This document shows, one piece after another, positions 8,125-63,922 of a stretch of 64,000 nucleotides of DNA (its first letter is position 1; every line of letters starts with the position of its first letter). The DNA is from Nannobrachium achirus (lineage: Eukaryota; Chordata; Actinopteri; Myctophiformes; Myctophidae), in assembly GCA_963921795.1 (NCBI GenBank), contig OY997659.1, positions 24,598,659-24,662,658 of the forward strand, written 5' to 3'. Below the pieces are notes generated by a model. The model was not told where the DNA came from, did not search any database, and worked only from the letters and a program-made list of their open reading frames with translations. The translations under genes were made by a program, and so were the position numbers.

Positions 8125-8565
8125 ATCAAATCAAACTTTATTTGTATAGCACATTTACAGTATCAAATAAAAAAACTTCAACAAATAATATGCACTGACA
8201 AAGAACAAAATATGCAGAGTTAATACTACATATACAACTAGAAACAATAGAGAACAGAGGATTTAAAAGCCCCAATCGAGAGCCTGGGGACCACAGCCGC
8301 AAAAGCCGGGTCACCCCTGCTCCTCTTGTTAGTTGCATGAACATCCAGCAGCATCTTGTCCGCAGACCTAAAGGCCCTGGCTGGGACATAGGGCTGGATT
8401 ATATCCAAAAGATAAAAGGTGCAAGCCATGAAGGGATTTAAAAACAAATAAAATAACCTTAAAATCAATTTTGAATTTAACAAGCCGACCAATCATCAAG
8501 GAAGATGATACACGAAAGAAGAAGAAGGAGCCAATGGAGGGGCAGCCACATACCATTAATACAAT
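8125..8565 (-). mobile_element. LINE 3'-end fragment (CR1/L2-like)
   Basis: The minus strand encodes degenerate peptide typical of the C-terminal region of fish CR1/L2-like reverse transcriptase ORFs: KFKIDFKVILFVFKSLHG, then IIQPYVPARAFRSADKMLL and GDPAFAAVVPRL. Downstream is a tail complementary to AAATCAAACTTTATTTGTATAG, the usual 3' end of such elements in fish. Frames are interrupted. A shorter piece of the same sequence (KFKIRLFYLF) recurs at 11345-11415 because the segmental duplication begins inside this fragment. Confidence 0.65.
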
Positions 8566-9247
8566 TAAACAAATTAAAATTCATGGTTAAGACATTAATG
8601 GGTGTAAATGATGTGGTAGTCCCATATTTACAATAAAACTAGAAAGATGGAATTGGAAATGGCAAGTGTGGTTGCAGTGACGCGAGTCACACTTGCAAGT
8701 CTTATCATTTAAATTTTCCCCATTCAAGTCAATGGGGAAAATGTATTCATTATATATTATACATTAATGGCCATATACAAGTGAAGCTTTTTGTAATGCT
8801 TCACACACTGTTGTCACTCTTCACATGACATCACAATATATAATATAAATGGTAAGACGGAACTCATGCAGTTACCAAATGTGACTAATGTCCGTGTCTC
8901 TGGTTCAAATCTGCTACCAAGCCAATCAAACTATATAGAGCTTGTTTTCGGGGAGGGCAATCTTTGTCACTGCAATTGCGACTCTTACAGGCTGGTATGG
9001 CAACTCTACAGTAAATTGGGAGAACAAATAGAAATATTGATTAAACAAAAAACAAAGAAACAAAAAACAGAAACAAATAAAAGAATAAAGAATAAGATGG
9101 GGCCTAATAAGACCAGGGCTCCCCTGCCTATCTAAGGTAATGGGGATTTTATTATTTAAAAAAAAGCTATTAAAAAAGGTAATATTAAAAAGATATTTGG
9201 CATTGATCGGTCTAGTGATTAATGAGATTAGCTGCGTCTATAAAAGA

Positions 9248-9279
<32 letters not shown>

Positions 9280-9280
9280 G
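9248..9280. repeat. (TCTG)n microsatellite
   Basis: About eight GTCT units lie in segmental copy A. The equivalent place in copy B (about 12330) has only two to three, so the tract expanded or contracted after duplication. Confidence 0.9.
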
Positions 9281-9430
9281 CCTGTTCGAAGCTAATTTCA
9301 AACCACTGGAACGATCAGTGCCAAATGTGCACAATGCCAGTAGGCCAAAGAAATACGACCAGACATGGCTTTTCACACAATGTTATATATTTTTGAAATA
9401 TTTAATTTTAATGTTATAATGGAAGTCAAA

Positions 9431-9545
9431 AGTGTGCCTCCATCTCCTCACCTCGGAAATGTAAGTGCCCCTACAAAGCCAAAGTTGGCCAAAACCCAAA
9501 CCCTCTCAACCACTGTTGATACTGAACTTGAACTCTGAAATATGC
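9431..9545 (-). pseudogene. Decayed third RRM downstream of G3BP-like copy A
   Basis: The plus strand here (GCCTCCATCTCCTCACCTCG, then GTAAGTGCCCCTACAAAGCC and TTGATACTGAACTTGA) matches, base for base with gaps, the DNA of the second RRM of the adjacent ORF (GCCTTCATCTCCTCCACATT, GTAAGTACCCC, TTGATACTGAGCTTCA). About 40 bases corresponding to the QNILS-encoding part are missing. It lies 3' of the stop codon and is not translatable. A matching relic follows copy B. Confidence 0.75.
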
Positions 9546-9598
9546 CTCAACCAGATGGTTTGAGGTTTACCATGGTATCCTTGTGTGCTTGTGACCAT

Positions 9599-10963
9599 TT
9601 ACCCTGTTGATTGTTGTCTAGGGTTCATGCCATTTATTCTTCTCTTCTCCCCGTTGAGGGACACCTCACTGGGGGCTTTATGTCCAGGTCTCTGTGCCGT
9701 TGACTTCACCGCTCCACTTGTAGCCTTGTACGGGCGTGGTGGACGCGCCTTCATCTCCTCCACATTGAGGCGCACCTCACCACGGAACTGTAAGTACCCC
9801 TTGCTAAGTATGTTCTGTACAGGTGCCGGATCATTAAATGATACAAACGCAAAGTTAGGGAGCTTCCCACCTTTCTTGATACTGAGCTTCAGGACTGTAC
9901 CATATTGCTCAAAGAACTCCTTGAGCTCAGCCTCATCCACATTGTGAGGGATGCTTCCGACAAACAGTTGGTGAGCTTTATGTACGGGCGGAGGTCCCCC
10001 GGGTCTCTGTGTGGTTGACTTCACCTCCCCGCTGGCAGTCTTTGCGGTCTTGTCCGAGCGTGGCGGGCGCGCCTTCATCTCCTCCACGTTGAGAGTCCAG
10101 TCACCACGAACCTTTATGGGCTTGTTGCAGAGGATGTTCTGTACAGGTGCAGAGTCATTGAATGCAACAAAGCCAAAGTTAAGGCCCTTTCCGCCACTCT
10201 TGATACTTAGGTTCAGAACTGTCCCGTAGTTCTCAAAGACCACGTTGAGCTCCGCCTCGTCCACATAGCGAGGGATGTTTCCGACAAACAGTTGGTGGGC
10301 GTCGGGGTACCTGACCTCCTGCACTGGCCTGGGACCCTTGTGTGCGGGCGGAGGGCCTCCAGTTCTCTGTGCTGCCGACTTCGCCCCGCTGGAAGGCACT
10401 GAAGGCAGGCTCTTACCGGTCATTGTTGCCCCCGACACTGGGGATGGGACATCAGTGTCTTTTTTCATCTCTATGACAGCAAGCTCCACCTCCTTCTGAG
10501 CATCTACCTCAGGGTCAAGGCTGGCAGACATTGCGGTCTGATCCTCTTCCTCATCGCATTGATCTCGCTCTGACCAGGGTCTCTGGTTGTAGATGTCAAT
10601 AGACTCATCCTGGGCCATCTCTGGAGAAGCAACCCTCTCTTCCATCTGTTCTACCTCTGCCTCAGATGTTTCTGGGTTGTTTTCCTCCGGAGCGGAGAGG
10701 CAGGCATCAGCAGAAGCTGTGGTGAGGTCTGTGATAGGAGCGATGGGACTCCTCTCTGTGGTCTCCTCAACTGGCTCAGGCTCCAGAAGAAGGATGTCCA
10801 CTTTCATCTCCTCCTGCCTTACAGGCTCCGTCTCGGATTCACAAATAGCCACAGCTGCCTCAGCCTCAGACTTTTTAGGAGATTCCAAGTCCGAATCTCT
10901 AAACACCTCATCTTGTCCAATCAGCTGGGCAGTAGTCTTCTCAGTCATCAGCAGCATCATCAT
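9599..10963 (-). CDS. G3BP-like protein with two RRMs and no NTF2 domain (copy A)
   Basis: An uninterrupted ORF of 454 codons from the first in-frame ATG (10963). The frame is open upstream, and the start matching G3BP is probably MTEK at 10948. The product begins MTEKTTAQLIGQ, then jumps to DEVFRDSD, so the whole NTF2-like domain found in copy B is absent. Next comes a long acidic, Glu-rich low-complexity stretch, then two RRMs in tandem (RNP2 LFVGNI and LFVGSI; RNP1 NFGFVAF and NFAFVSF), each ending in a LNVEEMKARPPR block. G3BP proteins normally have NTF2, an acidic region, one RRM and an RGG tail; here the tail is short (ending NPRQQSTG) without RGG. No introns interrupt it, so a retrocopy origin is inferred. 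Likely role: RNA binding without G3BP-type dimerisation. Alternatively it is a recent pseudogene that still reads through. Confidence 0.75.
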   Translation of the reverse strand: MMMLLMTEKTTAQLIGQDEVFRDSDLESPKKSEAEAAVAICESETEPVRQEEMKVDILLLEPEPVEETTERSPIAPITDLTTASADACLSAPEENNPETSEAEVEQMEERVASPEMAQDESIDIYNQRPWSERDQCDEEEDQTAMSASLDPEVDAQKEVELAVIEMKKDTDVPSPVSGATMTGKSLPSVPSSGAKSAAQRTGGPPPAHKGPRPVQEVRYPDAHQLFVGNIPRYVDEAELNVVFENYGTVLNLSIKSGGKGLNFGFVAFNDSAPVQNILCNKPIKVRGDWTLNVEEMKARPPRSDKTAKTASGEVKSTTQRPGGPPPVHKAHQLFVGSIPHNVDEAELKEFFEQYGTVLKLSIKKGGKLPNFAFVSFNDPAPVQNILSKGYLQFRGEVRLNVEEMKARPPRPYKATSGAVKSTAQRPGHKAPSEVSLNGEKRRINGMNPRQQSTG

Positions 10964-11239
10964 CAGTATAAAAATCAAGAAATTACCTTTCAGCGAATTC
11001 TTTGTATTGCCTAAACTAATCCAAAACAATTCCTTATGGTCTCTGCTCCTCTTATCATGACATATCTGTCAATTATGAATTGAGAGATGAGTGGCCGTGA
11101 TATACCTTTTAAAGACCAAATCTATCAACACCACAATGTCACCTTGTTACGTCACACGTTTGCAAACCTAAGCTACAACGAGCTGAACCAGAAAGACCAA
11201 TTAAAACACAAAGACCATTAAAACAACTAGAAAGGTGCA

Positions 11240-11285
11240 ATTCTGGGAAACTGCACGAGATCTACAAGCTCACAGCGCTCACTAG
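11240..11285. repeat. Half-copy of palindrome family 1
   Basis: GAGATCTACAAGCTCACAGC carries the family core without the opposing arm. It lies at the junction of the two segmental duplicates. Confidence 0.5.
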
Positions 11286-12581
11286 TTAAAGCATAATGGT
11301 AGTGGTTCAAATCTAATGTGACACAAATGCGTTCCAGGTCTAAATGGGTTAAAAACAAATAAAATAACCTTATTTTAAATTTAACAAGGAGCCAATGGAG
11401 GGGCAGCCACAAACCATTAACACAATTAAACAAATAAAACAATTAAACATAAAAAACAGATTTAAAATTCATTGTTGAGACATTAATGGGTGTAAATGAT
11501 GTGGTAGCCCCATATTTACAATAAAACTAGAAAGATGCAATTGGAAATTGCAAGTGTGGTTGCAGTGACGCGAGTCACACTTGCAAATCTTAGCATTTGA
11601 ATTTTCCCCATTCAAGTCAATGGGGAAAATGTATTCACTATTACATTAATGGCCATATAAAAGTGAAGCTTTTTGTCATGCTTCACACACTGTTGTCACT
11701 CTTCACATGTCATCACAATATAAATGGCAAGACGGAATTCAGTTACCAGTGGATTCCTCACGACTCGTGTCAGTGCAACCACACTTGCAATCTCCCAGAA
11801 TTTCACCTTTTACACTCACATTTGGGCATTGAATAATAATAATAAATGTGACTAATGTGTTCTTCTTAATGTGTCTCTGGTTCAAATCTGCTTCCAAGCC
11901 AATCAAACTAAGCTATGGGAAAATTAAACAGAACAGGAACTGGGACTAGTCTAGTGACTAAAATTATGAATAGAGCCTGTTTTCTTACAGGAACATGGGA
12001 GAACAAATTGAAATATTATTTAAAACAAAGATAAAAGAAACAAAAAACAACAAAAAACAAGAAACAAAAAATAGAAACAAATACAAAACTAAAACATAAG
12101 ATGGGGCCTAATAAGACCAGGGCTCCCCTGCTGATCTAGGGTAATGGGGATTTTATTATTTAATAAAAAAAGCTAATAAAAAAAGTTATAATTAAAAAAA
12201 CATTTGGCACTGATCGGTCCATTGGTTAATGAGATTAGCTGCGGACACACGAACACAAACAGATGCTTTTCTAGACAGCTCGCCCTTAGGAGCCAGTGTA
12301 AAGATACATTTTCCATCTATAAAAGGATCTGTCTGTCTGCTTGCCTGTTCGGCGCTAATCTTTCAAACCAATGGACCCATCCGGGCCAAATGTCTTGTGC
12401 ACACCGCCAAAGAAATACGACCAGAGATGGCTTTTCACAAAGTGTTATATATTTTTGAAATATTACATTTTAATTTTATAATGGAAGTCAATGGGGATCG
12501 GATTGGGCTGAAACCTTGCCTGAATTTGGAGTCAAATGTCATAGATACATCATAGAAGACTGGCATCACAGGCTGGGCAGA

Positions 12582-12722
12582 TGAGTGTGCCTCCATCTCC
12601 TCCATGTGGAGGAAAACCTCACCTCGGAAATGTAAATGCCCCTACAAAGCCAAAGTTGTCCAAAACCCAAAACTTCTCAACCACTGTTGATACTAAACTT
12701 GAACTCTGAAATTTGCCTCAAC
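12582..12722 (-). pseudogene. Decayed third RRM downstream of G3BP-like copy B
   Basis: GCCTCCATCTCCTCCATGTG, GAAATGTAAATGCCCC, TACAAAGCCAAAGTT and TTGATACTAAACTTGAACTC line up in order with the DNA of the second RRM at about 12925-13090. A gap of roughly 40 bases follows GCCCC, the same gap as in the copy A relic, so the decay predates the segmental duplication. It is outside the ORF. Confidence 0.75.
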
Positions 12723-12771
12723 CAGATCGTGGTTTGAGGTTTACCATGGTTCCTAGTATGCTTGTGACCAT

Positions 12772-14514
12772 TTACCCGGTTGATTGTTGTCTAGGGTTCA
12801 TGCCATTTATTCTCATGTCTCTCTTCTCCCCGTTGAGGGACACCTCACTGGGGGCTTTATGTCCAGGTCTCTGTGCCGTTGACTTCACCGCTCCACCTGT
12901 AGCCTTGTACGGGCGTGGTGGACGCGCCTTCATCTCCTCCACATTGAGGCGCACCTCACCACGGAACTGTAAGTACCCCTTGCTGAGGATGTTCTGTACA
13001 GGTGCCGAATCATTAAATGATACAAACGCAAAGTTAGGGAGCTTCCCACCTTTCTTGATACTGAGCTTCAGGACTGTACCATATTGCTCAAAGAACTCCT
13101 TGAGCTCAGCCTCGTCCACATTGTGAGGGATGCTTCCGACAAACAGTTGGTGAGCTTTATGTACGGGCGGAGGTCCTCCGGGTCTCTGTGCGGTTGACTT
13201 CACCTCCCCGCTGGCAGTCGCTGCGGCCTTGTCCGAGCGTGGCGGGCGCGCCTTCATCTCCTCCACGTTGAGAGTCCAGTCACCACGAACCTTTATGGGC
13301 TTGTTGCAGAGGATGTTCTGTACAGGTGCAGAGTCATTGAATGCAACAAAGCCAAAGTTACGGCCCTTTCCACCACTCTTGATACTCAGGTTCAGAACTG
13401 TCCCGTAGTTCTCAAAGACCACGTTGAGCTCCGCCTCGTCCACATAACGAGGGATGTTTCCGACAAACAGTTGGTGGGCGTCGGGGTACCTGACCTCCTG
13501 CACTGGCCTGGGACCCTTGTGTGCGGGCGGAGGGCCTCCAGTTCTCTGTGCTGCCGACTTCGCCCCGCTGGAAGGCAGGCTCTTACCGGTCATTGTTACC
13601 CCCGACACTGGGGATGGGACATCAGTGTCTTTTTTCATATCTATGACAGCAAGCTCCGCCTCCTTCTGAGCATCTACCTCAGGGTCAAGGCTGGCAGACA
13701 TCGCGGCCTGATCCTCTTCCTCGTCACATTGATCTTGCTCTGACCAGGGTCTCTGGTTGTAGATGTCAATAGACTCATCCTGGGCCATCTCTGGAGAAGC
13801 AACCCTCTCTTCCATCTGTTCTACTTCTGCCTCAGATGTTTCTGGGTTGTTTTCCTCCAGGACAGAGAGGCTGGCATCAGCAGAAGCTGTGGAAGCTGGG
13901 TCATCAAAGGCTGTGGTGACGTCTGTGATAGGAGTGATGGGACTTATCTCTGTGGTCTCCTCAGCTGGCTCAGGCTCCAGAAGGATGTCTGCTTTCATCT
14001 CCTCCTGCTTTACAGGCTCCATCTCAGGTTCACAAATAGCCACAGCTGCCTCGGCTTCAGACTTTTTAAGAGATTCCGAGTCCGAATCTCTAAACACCTC
14101 ATCTTGGTAACGGAAAACATCATTGTGAACATACCACCTGAATGCTACATTACTAGGAGCCAGGACAAAGGTTTGCACAAACTTCCTCATGGGCTGCTTG
14201 TTGTTGGAGAGCTCACCAATCACCTGCACCATCACATTATTGTTGGGTGTTGCGTGGATGTCCATATGTCTGATCTTTGTGGTGCAGTCACAGAAACCCA
14301 GGGATGTTACCTTCTTATGGATGTTAGACTGACCATAGACGGCATCCACTGGTTTGCCATTGCTGTCCAGGCCCCCATGGACATAGGAAGAGTTTGTGCC
14401 ATAAAACCTGTGCAGGTTTTGAGGCTCCTTGTGGAGGTATGTGTAGTACTGACGGACAAACTCTTGTCCAATCAGCTGGGCAGTAGTCTTCTCAGTCATC
14501 ATCAGCATCATCAT
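12772..14514 (-). CDS. G3BP-like protein: NTF2-like domain, acidic region, two tandem RRMs (copy B)
   Basis: An uninterrupted ORF of 580 codons from the first ATG (14514). A cluster of ATGs follows, and the start matching G3BP is probably MMTEK at about 14502. Residues about 10-137 are an NTF2-like domain with G3BP signatures EFVRQYY, HRFYGTNSSYVHGG, KIRHMDIHA and VHNDVFRYQDEVF. Then come an acidic Glu-rich segment (about 140-300), a PRP-rich linker, RRM1 (about 347-422; LFVGNI, NFGFVAF) and RRM2 (about 454-529; LFVGSI, NFAFVSF). G3BPs nucleate stress granules: NTF2 dimerises and binds FxFG-type partners, and RRM/RGG bind RNA. This protein has a duplicated RRM and no RGG tail. Parent genes have many introns, whereas this one has none, so it is inferred to be a retrogene. 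Expression is unproven, but the intact length argues against an old pseudogene. Confidence 0.8.
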   Translation of the reverse strand: MMMLMMTEKTTAQLIGQEFVRQYYTYLHKEPQNLHRFYGTNSSYVHGGLDSNGKPVDAVYGQSNIHKKVTSLGFCDCTTKIRHMDIHATPNNNVMVQVIGELSNNKQPMRKFVQTFVLAPSNVAFRWYVHNDVFRYQDEVFRDSDSESLKKSEAEAAVAICEPEMEPVKQEEMKADILLEPEPAEETTEISPITPITDVTTAFDDPASTASADASLSVLEENNPETSEAEVEQMEERVASPEMAQDESIDIYNQRPWSEQDQCDEEEDQAAMSASLDPEVDAQKEAELAVIDMKKDTDVPSPVSGVTMTGKSLPSSGAKSAAQRTGGPPPAHKGPRPVQEVRYPDAHQLFVGNIPRYVDEAELNVVFENYGTVLNLSIKSGGKGRNFGFVAFNDSAPVQNILCNKPIKVRGDWTLNVEEMKARPPRSDKAAATASGEVKSTAQRPGGPPPVHKAHQLFVGSIPHNVDEAELKEFFEQYGTVLKLSIKKGGKLPNFAFVSFNDSAPVQNILSKGYLQFRGEVRLNVEEMKARPPRPYKATGGAVKSTAQRPGHKAPSEVSLNGEKRDMRINGMNPRQQSTG

Positions 14515-14790
14515 CAGTATAAAAATCAAGAAATTACTTTTCAGCGATTCTTTAGATTGCCTAAACTGATGCCTTTCCTGATGTTCTCTGCTCCTCGTGA
14601 CCTATCCGTCAACTATAAATTGAGAGATGTGTGGCTGTGATGTGCTTTTTAAAGACCAAATCTATCAACACCACAATGTCACCTTATTACATCATCACAA
14701 GTTTGCAAACCTAAAGCTGATCCACAAAGACCAATTAAAACACAAAGACCAATTAAAACAACTAGAAAGGTGCAATTCTGGGAAACTGCA

Positions 14791-19637: not shown

Positions 19638-20670
19638 TTAATTGCGACCGTAGGTCGCAGTTACTTGCACTCCTATACTATCCAAACCTCCACTGGCTGT
19701 CAGTCCCTCCGCCAGGAGAGCTGGGGCCGGTACCTATTTGTCCGCCTCGGCGGCGCGGAGACCCCACCCCTCATTTCTCACATGGCCCTCTTCTAGCGCC
19801 ACCATGAGGCAGATTCTTGCAAAACACATTTTTGGACACTGCTCCTACAATTTTTGCCCTAAAATCACGCAAATCAGTACACAGTATGTCTACACTCATG
19901 TCATCAACTTGGATCTGTCCCATATAGCGCCACCTTCAGGCCTATTTTTTAAAACACATTTTTGGACACTGCTCCTACAATCTTTGCCCTAAAATCACAC
20001 AAATCGCTACACAGTATGTCTACACTCATCTCATCAACATGGATCTGTCCCATTTAGCGCCACCTTCAGGCCGATTTTTTAAAACACATTTTTGGACACT
20101 GCTCCTACAATTTTTGCCCTAAAATCACACAAATCGCTACACAGTATGTCTACACTCATCTCATCAACATGGATCTGCCCCATATAGCGCCACCTTCAGG
20201 CCGAATTTATTAAACACATTTTTGGACACTGCTCCTACAGATTTTGCCCTAAAATCACACAAATCGGTACACAGTATGTCTACACTCATGTCATCAACAT
20301 GGACCTGTCCCATATAGCGCCACCATCAGGCCGATTTTTTCAAACACATTTTTGGACACTGCCCTTACAGATTTTGCCCTAAAATCACACAAATCGGTAC
20401 ACAGTATGTCTACACTCATCTCATCAACATGGACCTGCCCAATTTAGCGCCACCTTCAGGCTGATTTTTTAAAACACATTTTTGGACACCTACAGATTTT
20501 GCCCTAAAATCACGCAAATCGCACAGTATCTCTACAGTCATGTAATCAAAACGCATCTGTCCCATCTAGCGCCACCATCAGGACGATTTTGGTACAACTA
20601 ATTTTTGGCCTATTTGTAGAGATAACGGTCGCTTATCTCCCGATTAGGGAGTCTTACTGGTTTATAGGTA
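19638..20670. mobile_element. Non-autonomous element with six 130-bp tandem units (Helentron/HINE-like?)
   Basis: It starts with the hairpin GCGACC-GTA-GGTCGC. Six units of period 130 follow (the CACATTTTTGGACACTGCTC landmark recurs at 19825, 19955, 20085, 20215, 20345, 20475). It ends with GGTCGCTTATCTCCCGATTA then GGGAGTCTTACTGGT, where CTCCC-GATTA-GGGAG forms a terminal hairpin. Copies lie at 30610-31577 and 62884-63922. Central tandem repeats, subterminal inverted repeats and a 3' hairpin fit a Helentron-derived non-autonomous element; that class is inferred. The period is not a multiple of three, so open frames across it are not genes. Confidence 0.75.
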
Positions 20671-48309: not shown

Positions 48310-48740
48310 ATGTACTGTAAGCCCCTCCCATACATTAAAATGTGTACCCGGCCTGAATGGGTTAAGGGAATCCATAACCCGGTAAAGCGCAGTAAGGTCT
48401 TTGCTCACCTAAAATCTCTGAGCTCAGACATAATGTTTTTACAAGAGACCCATTTAGGCTCTAGTGACCATGCAAAGCTAAAGAAAGCCTGGATAGGTCA
48501 AATGTTCTGCTCTAAGAATGAAAGTAGGACACAAGGTATGGCTATTTTAATCCGAAGGGGCGTTCCATTTGTCCCACAACAGACTATAGCTGACTCTAAG
48601 GGGAGATATGTGGTAGTGACAGGCACTCTTTATGGTACTTGTGTGGCCCTAGCTAATATATGGTCACAACTGGGATGACCCAGCCTTTTTCACTAAATTC
48701 ATAGCAACAGTTCCTGACCTAATAGCGCCATCCCTGAAAT
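48310..48740 (+). pseudogene. L1 ORF2 endonuclease remnant
   Basis: WVKGIHNPVKRSKVFAHLKS, LSSDIMFLQETHLGSSDH and the start of the next strand match the N-terminal AP-type endonuclease of L1 ORF2p (the Glu of QETHL is a catalytic-site residue). A frame change then gives NWDDPAFFTKFIATVPDLI. The rest of the endonuclease and the linker to the reverse transcriptase are missing, about 300 codons compared with intact relatives. Confidence 0.8.
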
Positions 48741-49937
48741 GAGAAAGGCAACAGGGGAGAAGACCACTAACCCTATAGAATTAAATGAGCAGTTTAAACA
48801 ATTTTATACAACCCTCTATACATCAGAACCACCTGCTGACCCACTAAGTGTCCAAACGTTCTTAGATGGCTTAACTATACCAGAGATTTCCCCAGAGGAC
48901 CAAAAGCAGATAGATAAGGAGATATCGGCAAGCGAAGTTCTAAAAGCAATCAAATCAATGCAGAGCGTTAATGGCTTTTTGATCGAAATTTACAAGGAAT
49001 TTGCTGATAAACTGGCTCAGATCCTCAGCCAATTATACATGGAAATATTTGAACAGTGTCAATTACCTCAAACTATGACGCAGGCCATCATATCAGTATT
49101 GCTTAAAATAGACAAAGACCCCTTATCATGCGGTTCGTACCGCCTAATAAGCTTGTTAAATTGTGATTACAAAATCCTCACTAAAATACTAGCCACCCGT
49201 ATTGAATCAGTGAATCCATCTAATTTTTCATGACCAAACAGGCTTTATTCCATGCCGTCAGTCATTTTACAACATGCGTTGCTTGTTTAACATCCTATAC
49301 ACCCCATTCTGAAAAACAGCCAAAGGTCACAGAGGTCACAGAGGTTGTGATCTCGCTGGACGGCGCCAAAGCATTTGACCGTGTTGAATGGCAGTATCTA
49401 TTTACGGTCCTGGAGAGATTTGGGTTCGGTCCGTTGTTACTAACCTGGATCATAATATTATGTAAATTGCCTATGGCTGCTGTACGGACGAATAACAACA
49501 TTTCTGGTTACTTTCCACTTCATAGGTCCTGCAGGCAGGGTTGTGGTCTCTCCCCATTCCTGTTCGATTTAGCAATCGAACCCCTCGCTATAGCTATCCG
49601 GACAGATGATGACATTAGGGGTATCTCTAGAGGGGGTAGAATAGAATTCATAAGTTATCGCTATATGCGGACGACCTACTTCTGTATACTGTATATCCAG
49701 CCCGGCACAGTCGATACCAAAAGTATTACTTACTTTAGAGAACTTTGGTCACCTGTCGGGTTACAAGCTTTTAAGCTAAACTATTCAAAAAGTGTACTTT
49801 TCCCAATTACCCACACAGACGAAATTTACTCCAATTTCCCATTCAAACTTGAACTCAAAGCATTCACATATTTGGGAGTGAGAGTCGCCAATACAATGGA
49901 GGAACTATATAAATATAATTTTAAAACGCTGACTTAA
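48739..49937 (+). pseudogene. L1 ORF2 reverse transcriptase remnant
   Basis: Segment 1 (48739-49230): EQFKQFYTTLYTSEP, then SGNG-like and SYRLISLLNCDYKILTKILA. Segment 2 (49230-49937, new frame): VVISLDGAKAFDRVEWQYLF, CRQGCGLSPFLFDLAIEPLA, AFKLNYSKSVLF. The catalytic YADD is intact at nucleotide level (TATGCGGACGAC, 49664-49675) but lies in a third frame because of a local shift. Confidence 0.85.
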
Positions 49938-57270: not shown

Positions 57271-57869
57271 TTACGTGAAGCGATCTGAATTCATCTTTCT
57301 GAGTTTAGGGGGCAGGTGTCCGTCCATTCTGCCCCCTCCTCCCCCTGCCAGTCGCTGCAGCTTGGGAGGTAAGTCTGCCACTGACTTGCTCATGGGCTCC
57401 GTGCAGATCTTGGAGCCCAGCTTGCCGGCCTGCTTGTCGTCAGAGACCCCGGGCACCGAGCTGATGCGTTGCAGCTTCATGGGCAGGTCTCCGAAGCTGT
57501 ATGTCATCTCCGAGGTGGTGGAGCTCATCCGCAGCAGCTTCTTGGGCAGGCCATCGCGGCCCTGCATCTTCTGCAGCTTGGTGGGGAGCTTGGTGGCACT
57601 TTCATTGTCCTCCAAGGTCTCCAGGCAGTCCAGGGAGCTGTTCTTCTCCCCGCTGTTGCACAGGGACGGAGCCATGAGGGGCGAGGAGAGGAGCAGCGCC
57701 TCCTCCTGTTCTTTAACACTGTGCGGCGTCGTATTCACCTCGAAAGTGGCATGGAACTGTGAGTAGTCCACCTTGAAGAAGCCCTCCTCTAAGGAGATGA
57801 CGGGGTAGAAGCGGTGACCCCACAGAACCTCGTCCTCGGTGTAAGACGTCCTCGCTTGGCAAGTCATCC
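57271..57869 (-). CDS. kcnj3: kcnj3 (GIRK1/Kir3.1) last coding exon
   Basis: On the minus strand an acceptor TTTTCGACAG precedes GG-ATG-ACT-TGC; the exon starts at 57869 with two bases completing a split Gly codon, and 198 codons follow to the stop at 57271. The peptide [44 protein letters not shown] is the end of the Kir cytoplasmic beta-sheet domain. The long tail with repeated P(M/P)KLQR-type motifs and the terminus [14 protein letters not shown] are diagnostic of GIRK1. GIRK1 is a subunit of G-protein-gated inward rectifier K+ channels, working with GIRK2 or GIRK4 and binding G-beta-gamma through its cytoplasmic domain. Earlier exons (pore and membrane segments) are not in the window, so the upstream intron exceeds 6 kb. 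Teleosts may have two paralogues; I cannot say which this is. Confidence 0.95.
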
Positions 57870-58569
57870 CTGTCGAAAACACACAAACAATGCACAGAAT
57901 AAATCACACTTGGCTGGATGAATAGTTTGCTAGTTATTACTACAAATTAACTTTCAATGTTGAATTCTTTGTGGCAAATGACATTGCCATTGTCTTGTCA
58001 GTGCACAAAATGTAAGAATACTTCATGTTTTGTTTTGGAGATTAAACATTTGACTATCATATTAAACAGACAGGCCTGATTCAATTACATCCCTGGCCTG
58101 GTGCCCTTAGCTTCAACATTGGGGTGTTCTTACATTGTTTTTGTGCCATTTTCAGATCACTAAACGAACACTGCAAACAAAACTGCATCAATAAATTAGT
58201 ACTTATTAGCGAGGCATCTGCTTACATAAAATGTTTAATTGATTTTCAGAGAGCAAAAATTACAATTATGAGGAAGTTCCAGTCATTTTGAAGAAGCAAA
58301 TGTGCTGCTTAATCATTTGCCGTGTATACAATTAATTACTTGAACTACACACTGCATTAAAATAGTTGAATGGAGGCATTCAGCTAATGCAGTTTGTATC
58401 CTGAAATTATTTCATTTCCTTGACTTTGTGCAGTGCACATTTGTTTAAAGTGTCATATTTATCCATACAGAACTGTTCAGAACTGACTGATAATAATTAC
58501 TCAACGGACTGAATCAAGCAGCCGTAAAGACACCTAATGTCTGTGTAATTTGATGAACATACTATACAG

Positions 58570-62883: not shown

Positions 62884-63922
62884 TGCGACCGTCAGGTCGC
62901 ACTTACTACCAAAACCTCCTCCGTCACACGTCACACGTCACACGTCACACTTTTTCCCTGCTCATATCTCCGCAACCGTTGACCCGATCCATGCCAGATT
63001 TTGCACACACACTCCTTGCCTGCCTAACTACAACCTCCAAGGACCCCCGGAGCCCCAGGGACCCCCAGGTCCCTGGGGGACCCCCAGATGTAAAAAATGA
63101 CCAAATGTGGTCACACGTCACATGTCACACTTTTTCCCTGCTCATATCTCCGCAACCGTTGACCCGATCCATGCCAGATTTTGCACACACACTCCTTGCC
63201 TGCCAAACTACAACCTCCAAGGACCCCCGGAGCCCCAGGGACCCCCAGGTCCCTGGGGGACCCCCAGATGTAAAAAATGACCCAATGTGCAAAAATGACC
63301 AAATGACCACCCCAACGGGGCTGCTCACGGGGAATTCCCGGGGACCACCGACTCCTGGTGCTCCAGAACGGATGCAAAAGTGGTGGCGCCCCCAGTGGAG
63401 GACCCCCTGCCACTGCAGCACACATAAAATGCCGTAACTCGGGCTAGGAGCGACCGGGAGAGCCGGGGCCGGTACCTATTTGTCCGCCTCGGCGGCGCGG
63501 AGACCCCACCCCTCATTTCTCACATGGCCCTCTTCTAGCGCCACCATGAGGCCGATTCTTGCAAAACACATTTTTCGACACTGCTCCTACAATTTTTGCC
63601 CTAAAATCACTGACATCGCTACACAGTATGTCTACACTCATGTCATCAACATGGATCTGTCCCATATAGCGCCACCTTCAGGCCGATTTTTTAAAACCCA
63701 TTTTTGGACACTGCTCCTACAATTTTTGCCCTAAAATCACACAAATCGGTACACAGTATGTCTACACTCATCTCATCAATATGGATGTCCCATATAGCGC
63801 CACCATCAGGCCGATTTTTTTAAACCACATTTTTGGACACTGCTCCTACACATTTTGCCCTAAAATCACGCTGCGACCTGATCGGGAGATAAGCATCTCC
63901 CGATTAGGGAGTCTTACTGGTG
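62884..63922. mobile_element. 130-bp-unit element, copy 3 (most complete 5' part)
   Basis: It starts with the hairpin GCGACC-GTCA-GGTCGC, then a 180-bp tandem pair (TTTTTCCCTGCTCATATCTC at 62951 and 63131) containing TCCGCAACCGTTGACCCGAT. A unique block matching 30991-31260 follows, then about three 130-bp units (landmarks 63567, 63697, 63826), then GGGAGATAAGCATCTCCC and the terminal CTCCCGATTAGGGAG, CTTACTGGT. No protein-coding capacity: the 130-base period shifts frame each unit. Confidence 0.75.

Follow-up and report, generated by a model that had tools for sequence, protein, structure and literature searches.

The window, a 64,000-nucleotide stretch of the Nannobrachium achirus genome, contains two neighbouring minus-strand open reading frames (ORFs), copy A and copy B, that belong to a g3bp1-derived intronless family with one to five RNA recognition motifs (RRMs) per member, the RRMs being under purifying selection. 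At least 17 intronless loci in this genome carry 39 G3BP-type RRMs, 13 of the 17 with two to five each. G3BP1 and G3BP2 are core stress-granule nucleators and are often targeted by viruses, and the chances are about even that the family members are functional modifiers of G3BP-type RNA granules, produced by g3bp1 retroposition and modular spread.

Structure and parentage of copies A and B

The ORF list of the window places the two frames, with TTG starts, at 9599-11029 and 12772-14529 on the minus strand; counted from the first in-frame ATG, copy A spans 9599-10963 (454 codons plus stop) and copy B 12772-14514 (580 codons plus stop). A sequence-only reading of this DNA had described two neighbouring minus-strand ORFs, one of 454 codons and one of 580, both containing an acidic region and two RRM units and neither ending in an arginine-glycine-glycine (RGG) tail, and this description is borne out: the units each end LNVEEMKARPPR, RGG triplets are absent from both copies, and no RG follows the last RRM in either. 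That reading did not mention that copy A lacks the NTF2 fold, which is missing through a 360-bp in-frame gap. Pfam matches in copy B are NTF2 (PF02136, 1.4e-28) and two RRM_1 stretches, and in copy A two RRM_1 stretches and no NTF2. Among PDB sequences, G3BP2 and G3BP1 match copy B best, and the two G3BP-type RRMs in each copy are 71-74% identical to the RRM of the genome's own g3bp1. Because these domains score with high significance and 15 other RRM loci have homologous intronless ORFs, the two ORFs are not chance open frames. The features of the locus are as follows, with omega denoting the ratio of nonsynonymous to synonymous divergence (dN/dS).

12772..14514, minus strand: copy B, intronless G3BP1-derived ORF with NTF2, acidic linker, two RRMs and no RGG; 580 codons plus stop
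14107..14472, minus strand: NTF2 domain of copy B (Pfam PF02136, 1.4e-28), in which the FGDF pocket retains F15 and F33 and has W at F124 in the alignment to the genome's own g3bp1
13486..14106, minus strand: acidic, low-constraint linker of copy B (omega between A and B, 1.02)
13252..13485, minus strand: RRM1 of copy B
12928..13155, minus strand: RRM2 of copy B
14647..14685, minus strand: promoter-like block of copy B, ending TTTAAAA and identical to that of copy A at 39 of 39 bases; comparable blocks precede L009, L010 and L014
9599..10963, minus strand: copy A, intronless ORF with an acidic linker ahead of two RRMs, the NTF2 domain being absent in frame; 454 codons plus stop
10073..10306, minus strand: RRM1 of copy A
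9749..9976, minus strand: RRM2 of copy A
10911..10915, minus strand: copy A junction at which 360 bp with NTF2 are absent in frame, the flanking matches overlapping by 5 bp
11107..11145, minus strand: promoter-like block of copy A
8522..11255, no strand: tandem duplication unit with copy A (outer limits of matching blocks)
11383..14790, no strand: tandem duplication unit with copy B (outer limits of matching blocks)

In this genome a g3bp2-like gene lies on C3 and a g3bp1-like one on C17. The latter is multi-exon, starts with MVMEKPSAQLVGREFVRQYYT, and has introns within NTF2 and two more within the RRM; its exon pieces match the NTF2, linker (QRPGGPPAVHRGPRP; VPSPEVTQDEAATFYEQTPW) and RRM, and neither the NTF2 of copy B nor the RRMs of either copy are interrupted by the parental introns. 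Judged by sequence, the parent of the copies is C17 g3bp1, and the copies are G3BP1-derived paralogues and not canonical G3BP, because they lack the RGG tail. The missing introns support the earlier proposal of a G3BP retrocopy. The fuller history proposed with it, in which a retrocopy gained a second RRM and the locus was later duplicated in tandem, stands in each of these steps but is incomplete, as the two copies are part of a larger family, with 17 or more loci, and copy A is without NTF2. Any poly(A) tract and target-site duplication have likely eroded, given a synonymous divergence (dS) of about 0.86 to the parental NTF2. At the zebrafish rate of 4.13e-9 per silent site per year (PMC3091775), which comes from other fish, this dS would correspond very roughly to 100 million years, and fish of the same family and order would then be expected to share these genes.

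A genome-wide family with RRM arrays and varied N-termini

Whole-genome protein searches with copy B, L009 and L020 as queries gave at least 54, 33 and 42 matches, respectively, and the family counts are lower bounds. The three queries agree on the RRM loci, and the L020 search contributed five further places that match in the coil or linker. Sixteen of the RRM loci each have one uninterrupted reading frame, 454 to 1223 codons long; the remaining one, L023, is partly N, contributes one RRM, and does not enter the counts made on flanks and tails. The largest array, at L009, has five RRMs; L010, L014, L015, L019, L020 and L025 have three, copies A and B, L011, L016, L017 and L018 have two, and L021, L022, L023 and L024 have one each. 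Pfam reports RRM_1 in all 16 ORFs scanned and NTF2 above the cut-off in copy B and L011 only. Counting g3bp1, all 40 units have the RNP2 pattern and 37 of them strict RNP1.

A codon tree of the 39 RRM units with g3bp1 as outgroup (leaving out a 25-residue L009 piece, the g3bp1 and g3bp2 exon pieces, L031, L034 and L035) contains two clades, each with 99% ultrafast bootstrap support. Clade I comprises the window copies, L009, L010, L011, L014, L015, L021 and L022, and clade II comprises L016-L020 and L023-L025. Arrays have grown within loci: RRM2 groups with RRM4 (96) and RRM3 with RRM5 (98) in L009, RRM2 with RRM3 (98) in L014, and all three units together in L015 (85) and in L025 (96). The window RRM1 is sister to the L021/L022 RRM (95) and the window RRM2 groups with an L011 RRM (90), so that the two-RRM state is probably older than the window locus. 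With so many loci in the family, the retroposition predates this one and the RRM duplication probably does too, with support along the clade I backbone mostly between 23 and 47.

For the 39 units and g3bp1 together, the codon model gives an omega of 0.33 (log likelihood -4588.3, versus -4707.4 with omega 1, kappa fixed at 2), and over all units with rate variation omega is 0.29. Omega is 0.29 for the clade I RRMs (log likelihood -2496.9 versus -2565.8 at omega 1; likelihood ratio 137.8) and 0.40 for those of clade II (-2211.1 versus -2243.4; likelihood ratio 64.6), and an omega of 1, fixed as the sole parameter, is strongly rejected in both. Pairwise values include 0.25 for L009-L010 (dS 1.03, p = 4e-23) and 0.41 for L012-L013 (p = 0.001). 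Neutral simulation at L009-L010-like distances accumulates 13.5 and 20.3 stops on average, with none of 2000 runs free of stops.

The absence of a terminal RGG extends through the family: none of the 16 ORFs has an RGG after its last RRM, where RG numbers from 0 to 3, and the six RGG triplets found elsewhere (L009, two; L010, one; L011, two; L025, one) are in RRM loops or linkers. The C17 g3bp1 frame ends in a glycine- and arginine-rich tail of 64 residues with four RG and one RGG. Read by eye, the post-RRM stretches VSRGPPTHLQKPSFDARQ (L025) and VPRDTPTYVQKPSFGSRQ (L023) of clade II resemble the parental GPRGPPTRGGMAQKPSFGSGRG, so the tail in this clade seems to have been eroded and duplicated along with the RRM and not cut off.

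A second feature of the family is the variety of its N-termini. An intronless chimera present in two copies on C20 (L021:1463-5293, plus strand, 39.30 Mb; L022:4631-8290, minus strand, 39.16 Mb) is organized as an NTF2-start remnant (TGQNFVPQHFTLYQETHYLHRF in L021), an eIF4G-like core, acidic repeats and one terminal G3BP-type RRM. The core contains MIF4G (1.9e-49 and 1.4e-48) and MA3 (2e-28 and 1e-28), L021 matches eIF4G1 at 818 bits, and the stretch YDRDFLLSLQF in this part resembles the eIF4E-binding motif. L024:3841-5436 (minus strand; C20, 53.97 Mb), also intronless, fuses part of a choline-phosphate cytidylyltransferase, which scores 398 bits against the A form of that enzyme, to one G3BP-type RRM and a hydrophobic C-terminus. 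By eye, L016-L020 and L025 have an N-terminal charged coiled-coil-like segment, which is repeated in some.

L015:3891-5867 (plus strand; C8, 55.45 Mb) has a hydrophobic N-terminal segment and a partial NTF2 (E 0.0087, under the Pfam cut-off), followed by its three RRMs. L012 (C18, 47.32 Mb) and L013 (C20, 28.02 Mb) are NTF2-only ORFs of 179 and 180 codons, and L012 ends in a basic KRKRRRNQL stretch. L032:123-7427 (minus strand; C14, 30.59 Mb) is one open frame of 2435 codons with a clade II coil-like start and then a long degenerate acidic repeat; neither L032 nor L034, which by eye has a partial RRM, gives any Pfam family match. The decayed relatives are L031, with a frame-broken RRM, and L035, with only a short coil. 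Weak matches at C16:53.92, C3:63.90 and C9:33.18 and a stop-containing match at C18:46.554 are outside the family counts. Viral capture was rejected as a source: an RRM-alignment scan of viral contigs gave 59 pattern matches, of which none was confirmed as a relative.

Tandem duplication and upstream regions

The blocks on the A side pair with those on the B side in direct orientation, which supports the sequence-only reading in its proposal that the whole locus was duplicated after the second RRM was gained. In a global alignment, A and B are 96.7% identical over 1353 aligned coding bases and 86.0% identical over 1332 flanking bases, the latter figure being pulled down by the bin at 8850-8999, which is 61% identical and possibly misaligned. 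The coding indels are of 3, 6, 9, 24 and 360 bases, all five of them multiples of three, compared with 7 of 22 in the flanks. The 360-base indel removes the NTF2 domain from copy A, and the 5-base overlap at its junction would match the expectation for a microhomology deletion. Only a single assembly was examined, and the tandem copy could in principle be a falsely duplicated haplotype, but the 14% flank divergence, the 360-bp gap, the 22 flank indels and the deep relatives on other contigs make such an artefact extremely improbable.

The promoter-like blocks of A and B are perfectly conserved inside flanks that are 86% identical. In the clade I loci A, B, L009, L010 and L014 the block ends TTTAAAA or TTCAAAA and lies 127-150 nucleotides (nt) upstream of the ATG; none was seen at L015 or L024. 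The coil loci L016-L020 and L025 all have a TATATA box 83-112 nt upstream of the ATG (6 of 6), with TGACG/CGTCA half-sites 16-36 nt upstream of the box in 5 of 6. Across 18 loci, 13 of 34 non-sister upstream matches fall within 260 nt of both ATGs, and downstream of the stop the count is 0 of 8; these counts omit matches between sister loci (A-B, L021-L022 and L011-L012-L013), with A and B counted separately against other loci. The sharing of the block at matching upstream distances, together with its identity in A and B, suggests either that the promoter was carried along as the loci spread, in which case this spread would have followed a founding retroposition and taken place at the DNA level, or that selection acts on the promoter.

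These upstream regions also bear on an alternative in which this is a germline gene family, whose TATA-like box and TGACG (cAMP response element-like) half-sites drive testis or oocyte expression and whose proteins are germ-cell RNA-storage factors, not stress or antiviral ones. Retrogenes are often testis-expressed, and a TGACG/CGTCA half-site stands 16-41 nt before the TATA-like box in 10 of 18 upstream regions (with box variants chosen post hoc), compared with a background of 0.38 per 300 nt in 14 loci plus the window. However, the half-sites are short, sister loci are not independent, L015 and L025 (2 of the 18 regions) have no half-site in 300 nt, and in other regions, including that of copy B, there is none just before the box. 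The germline alternative is plausible but less likely than not.

Elsewhere in the window there is a piece of an inward rectifier potassium channel C-terminal domain (PF17655, 2.3e-18) at 57271-57882 on the minus strand, two adjoining plus-strand ORFs with reverse-transcriptase fragments (PF00078; the first below the cut-off) at 48739-49937, and, at 19794-20590 and 63536-63869, two tandem arrays whose 130-bp units (TAGCGCCACC...) resemble each other. Rfam (at gathering scores) and tRNA scans of the window gave no match.

Proposed roles and comparison with known systems

The family may have begun when g3bp1 mRNA was reverse-transcribed and inserted long ago; the inserted copy would then have come under a compact TATA-like promoter and lost the RGG tail, and the family would have spread and changed through in-frame duplication of RRM-linker modules and exchange of N-termini. 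All 5 NTF2 sequences compared retain F15 and F33 of the FGDF pocket. At position 124 g3bp1 has F and copy B has W; L011 and L013 have Y there and L012 has M, these last three residues being uncertain as there are alignment gaps nearby. In human G3BP1, F33W abolishes binding to nsP3, USP10 and ICP8 and F124W retains it (PMC4450067); the idea that F124W breaks the FGDF pocket was dropped on this ground. Dimerisation and Caprin/USP10 binding are NTF2 functions in G3BP, and RGG-less G3BP neither assembles stress granules nor binds 40S (both PMC6594655), so copy B is expected to have lost stress-granule nucleation and 40S binding. The NTF2 domain of copy B may dimerise with itself or with G3BP1/2 and bind FGDF-type partners (USP10, Caprin or viral mimics), its two RRMs would hold RNA, and without RGG it would neither recruit 40S nor nucleate granules. 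Lacking the RGG, copy B would be a modifier and not a nucleator of G3BP granules, either a competitor or an RNA-selective adaptor. Having no NTF2 domain, copy A would act as a soluble RNA binder with two RRMs, unable to join an NTF2 dimer.

Several results weigh against reading these genes as functional modifiers of RNA granules. Comparison of A and B gives a mixed dN/dS: omega is 0.62 over the whole shared ORF (p = 0.14, not distinguishable from 1) and 1.02 in the linker, although it is 0.33 in the RRM half (p = 0.04, with the split made after the domains were seen). L021-L022 (0.62, p = 0.07), L011-L012 (0.60, p = 0.07) and L011-L013 (0.65, p = 0.14) are likewise not distinguishable from 1. 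Flank divergence between A and B, at 14%, exceeds the silent coding divergence (dS 0.048), which hints at gene conversion between the copies and makes the A-B rates harder to read. The loss of NTF2 in copy A could be early decay. Since the parental tail has only one RGG and four RG, the contrast with the copies lies in the whole tail and not in many RGG repeats. Dimerisation and ligand binding by copy B are predicted by analogy with human G3BP1, and an AlphaFold run on a two-row alignment (copies B and A) was discarded at a mean pLDDT (predicted local distance difference test) of 30.7, so the folds rest on sequence profiles.

The A-B omegas would also fit a reading of A and B as decaying retro-duplicates, processed-gene relics that are open by chance; a neutral simulation leaves copy B without a stop with a probability of 0.25 at distance 0.025, and decayed relatives exist in L031 and L035. 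This is nonetheless improbable, given the in-frame coding indels (5 of 5, versus 7 of 22 in the flanks), coding sequence far more alike than the flanks, the identical promoter-like blocks, and the clade omegas of 0.29 and 0.40. The stronger evidence of constraint is in the omegas of the other family members, together with the A-B indels and flanks.

Another alternative is that the genes are antiviral decoys, with NTF2 members soaking up viral FGDF-type proteins and RRM arrays binding viral RNA, which would explain the expansion, loose linkers and domain swapping. The core of the FGDF pocket is kept, that pocket is a viral target (PMC4450067), the linker omega is near 1, and N-termini are varied; against this, just two of the 16 Pfam-scanned ORFs, copy B and L011, pass the NTF2 cut-off, and no positive selection is shown, leaving decoys an unlikely explanation. 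Beyond the modifier role itself, a broader proposal is that one retroposed g3bp1 founded a private RNA-granule-modifier toolkit with its own promoter, in which in-frame RRM multiplication and N-terminal effector swaps (NTF2, coiled coil, eIF4G core with an eIF4E-binding-like motif, lipid-synthesis enzyme, membrane anchor) yield a diversifying repertoire that targets granules or translation, plausibly under virus conflict or in germ cells. This proposal is speculative and more likely wrong than right.

Vertebrate G3BP paralogs are counted as three in PMC10871250. This genome adds at least 17 RRM-bearing derivatives, and the 16 of these 17 that were inspected for an RGG tail all lack one. They are natural experiments on which parts of G3BP matter, and in some of them G3BP RRMs are naturally fused to eIF4G or to an enzyme of metabolism. 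They also illustrate how one retrogene can seed a modular family rather than die as a pseudogene. No description of intronless or multi-RRM G3BP derivatives was found among the papers listed in searches of open-access literature, and fish gene catalogues may already name members as G3BP-like.

Compared with C17 g3bp1 of the same genome, the NTF2, acidic linker and RRM are homologous along their length and F15 and F33 of the FGDF pocket are kept, but the copies are intronless, have two RRMs instead of one and no RGG tail, F124 is W in copy B, and copy A is without NTF2. The zebrafish retrogene and chimeric retrogene sets (PMC3091775) likewise contain intronless copies, many of them constrained and some chimeric; a term search of the main text found no mention of G3BP, Ras GTPase, RNA recognition or eIF4G. 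Unlike in those sets, a single parent here gave rise to a family at many loci, in which RRM arrays are built in frame and several different partners are fused. The seven-gene G3BP-like family of Arabidopsis is similarly a lineage-specific multigene G3BP family, although it is from a plant and RRM arrays are not mentioned in the part of its description (PMC7838295) available. Tandem-RRM proteins such as hnRNP A1 also have two successive RRMs and appear among the PDB sequence matches, but this resemblance is general to RRMs, whereas the RRMs of copies A and B descend from G3BP1.

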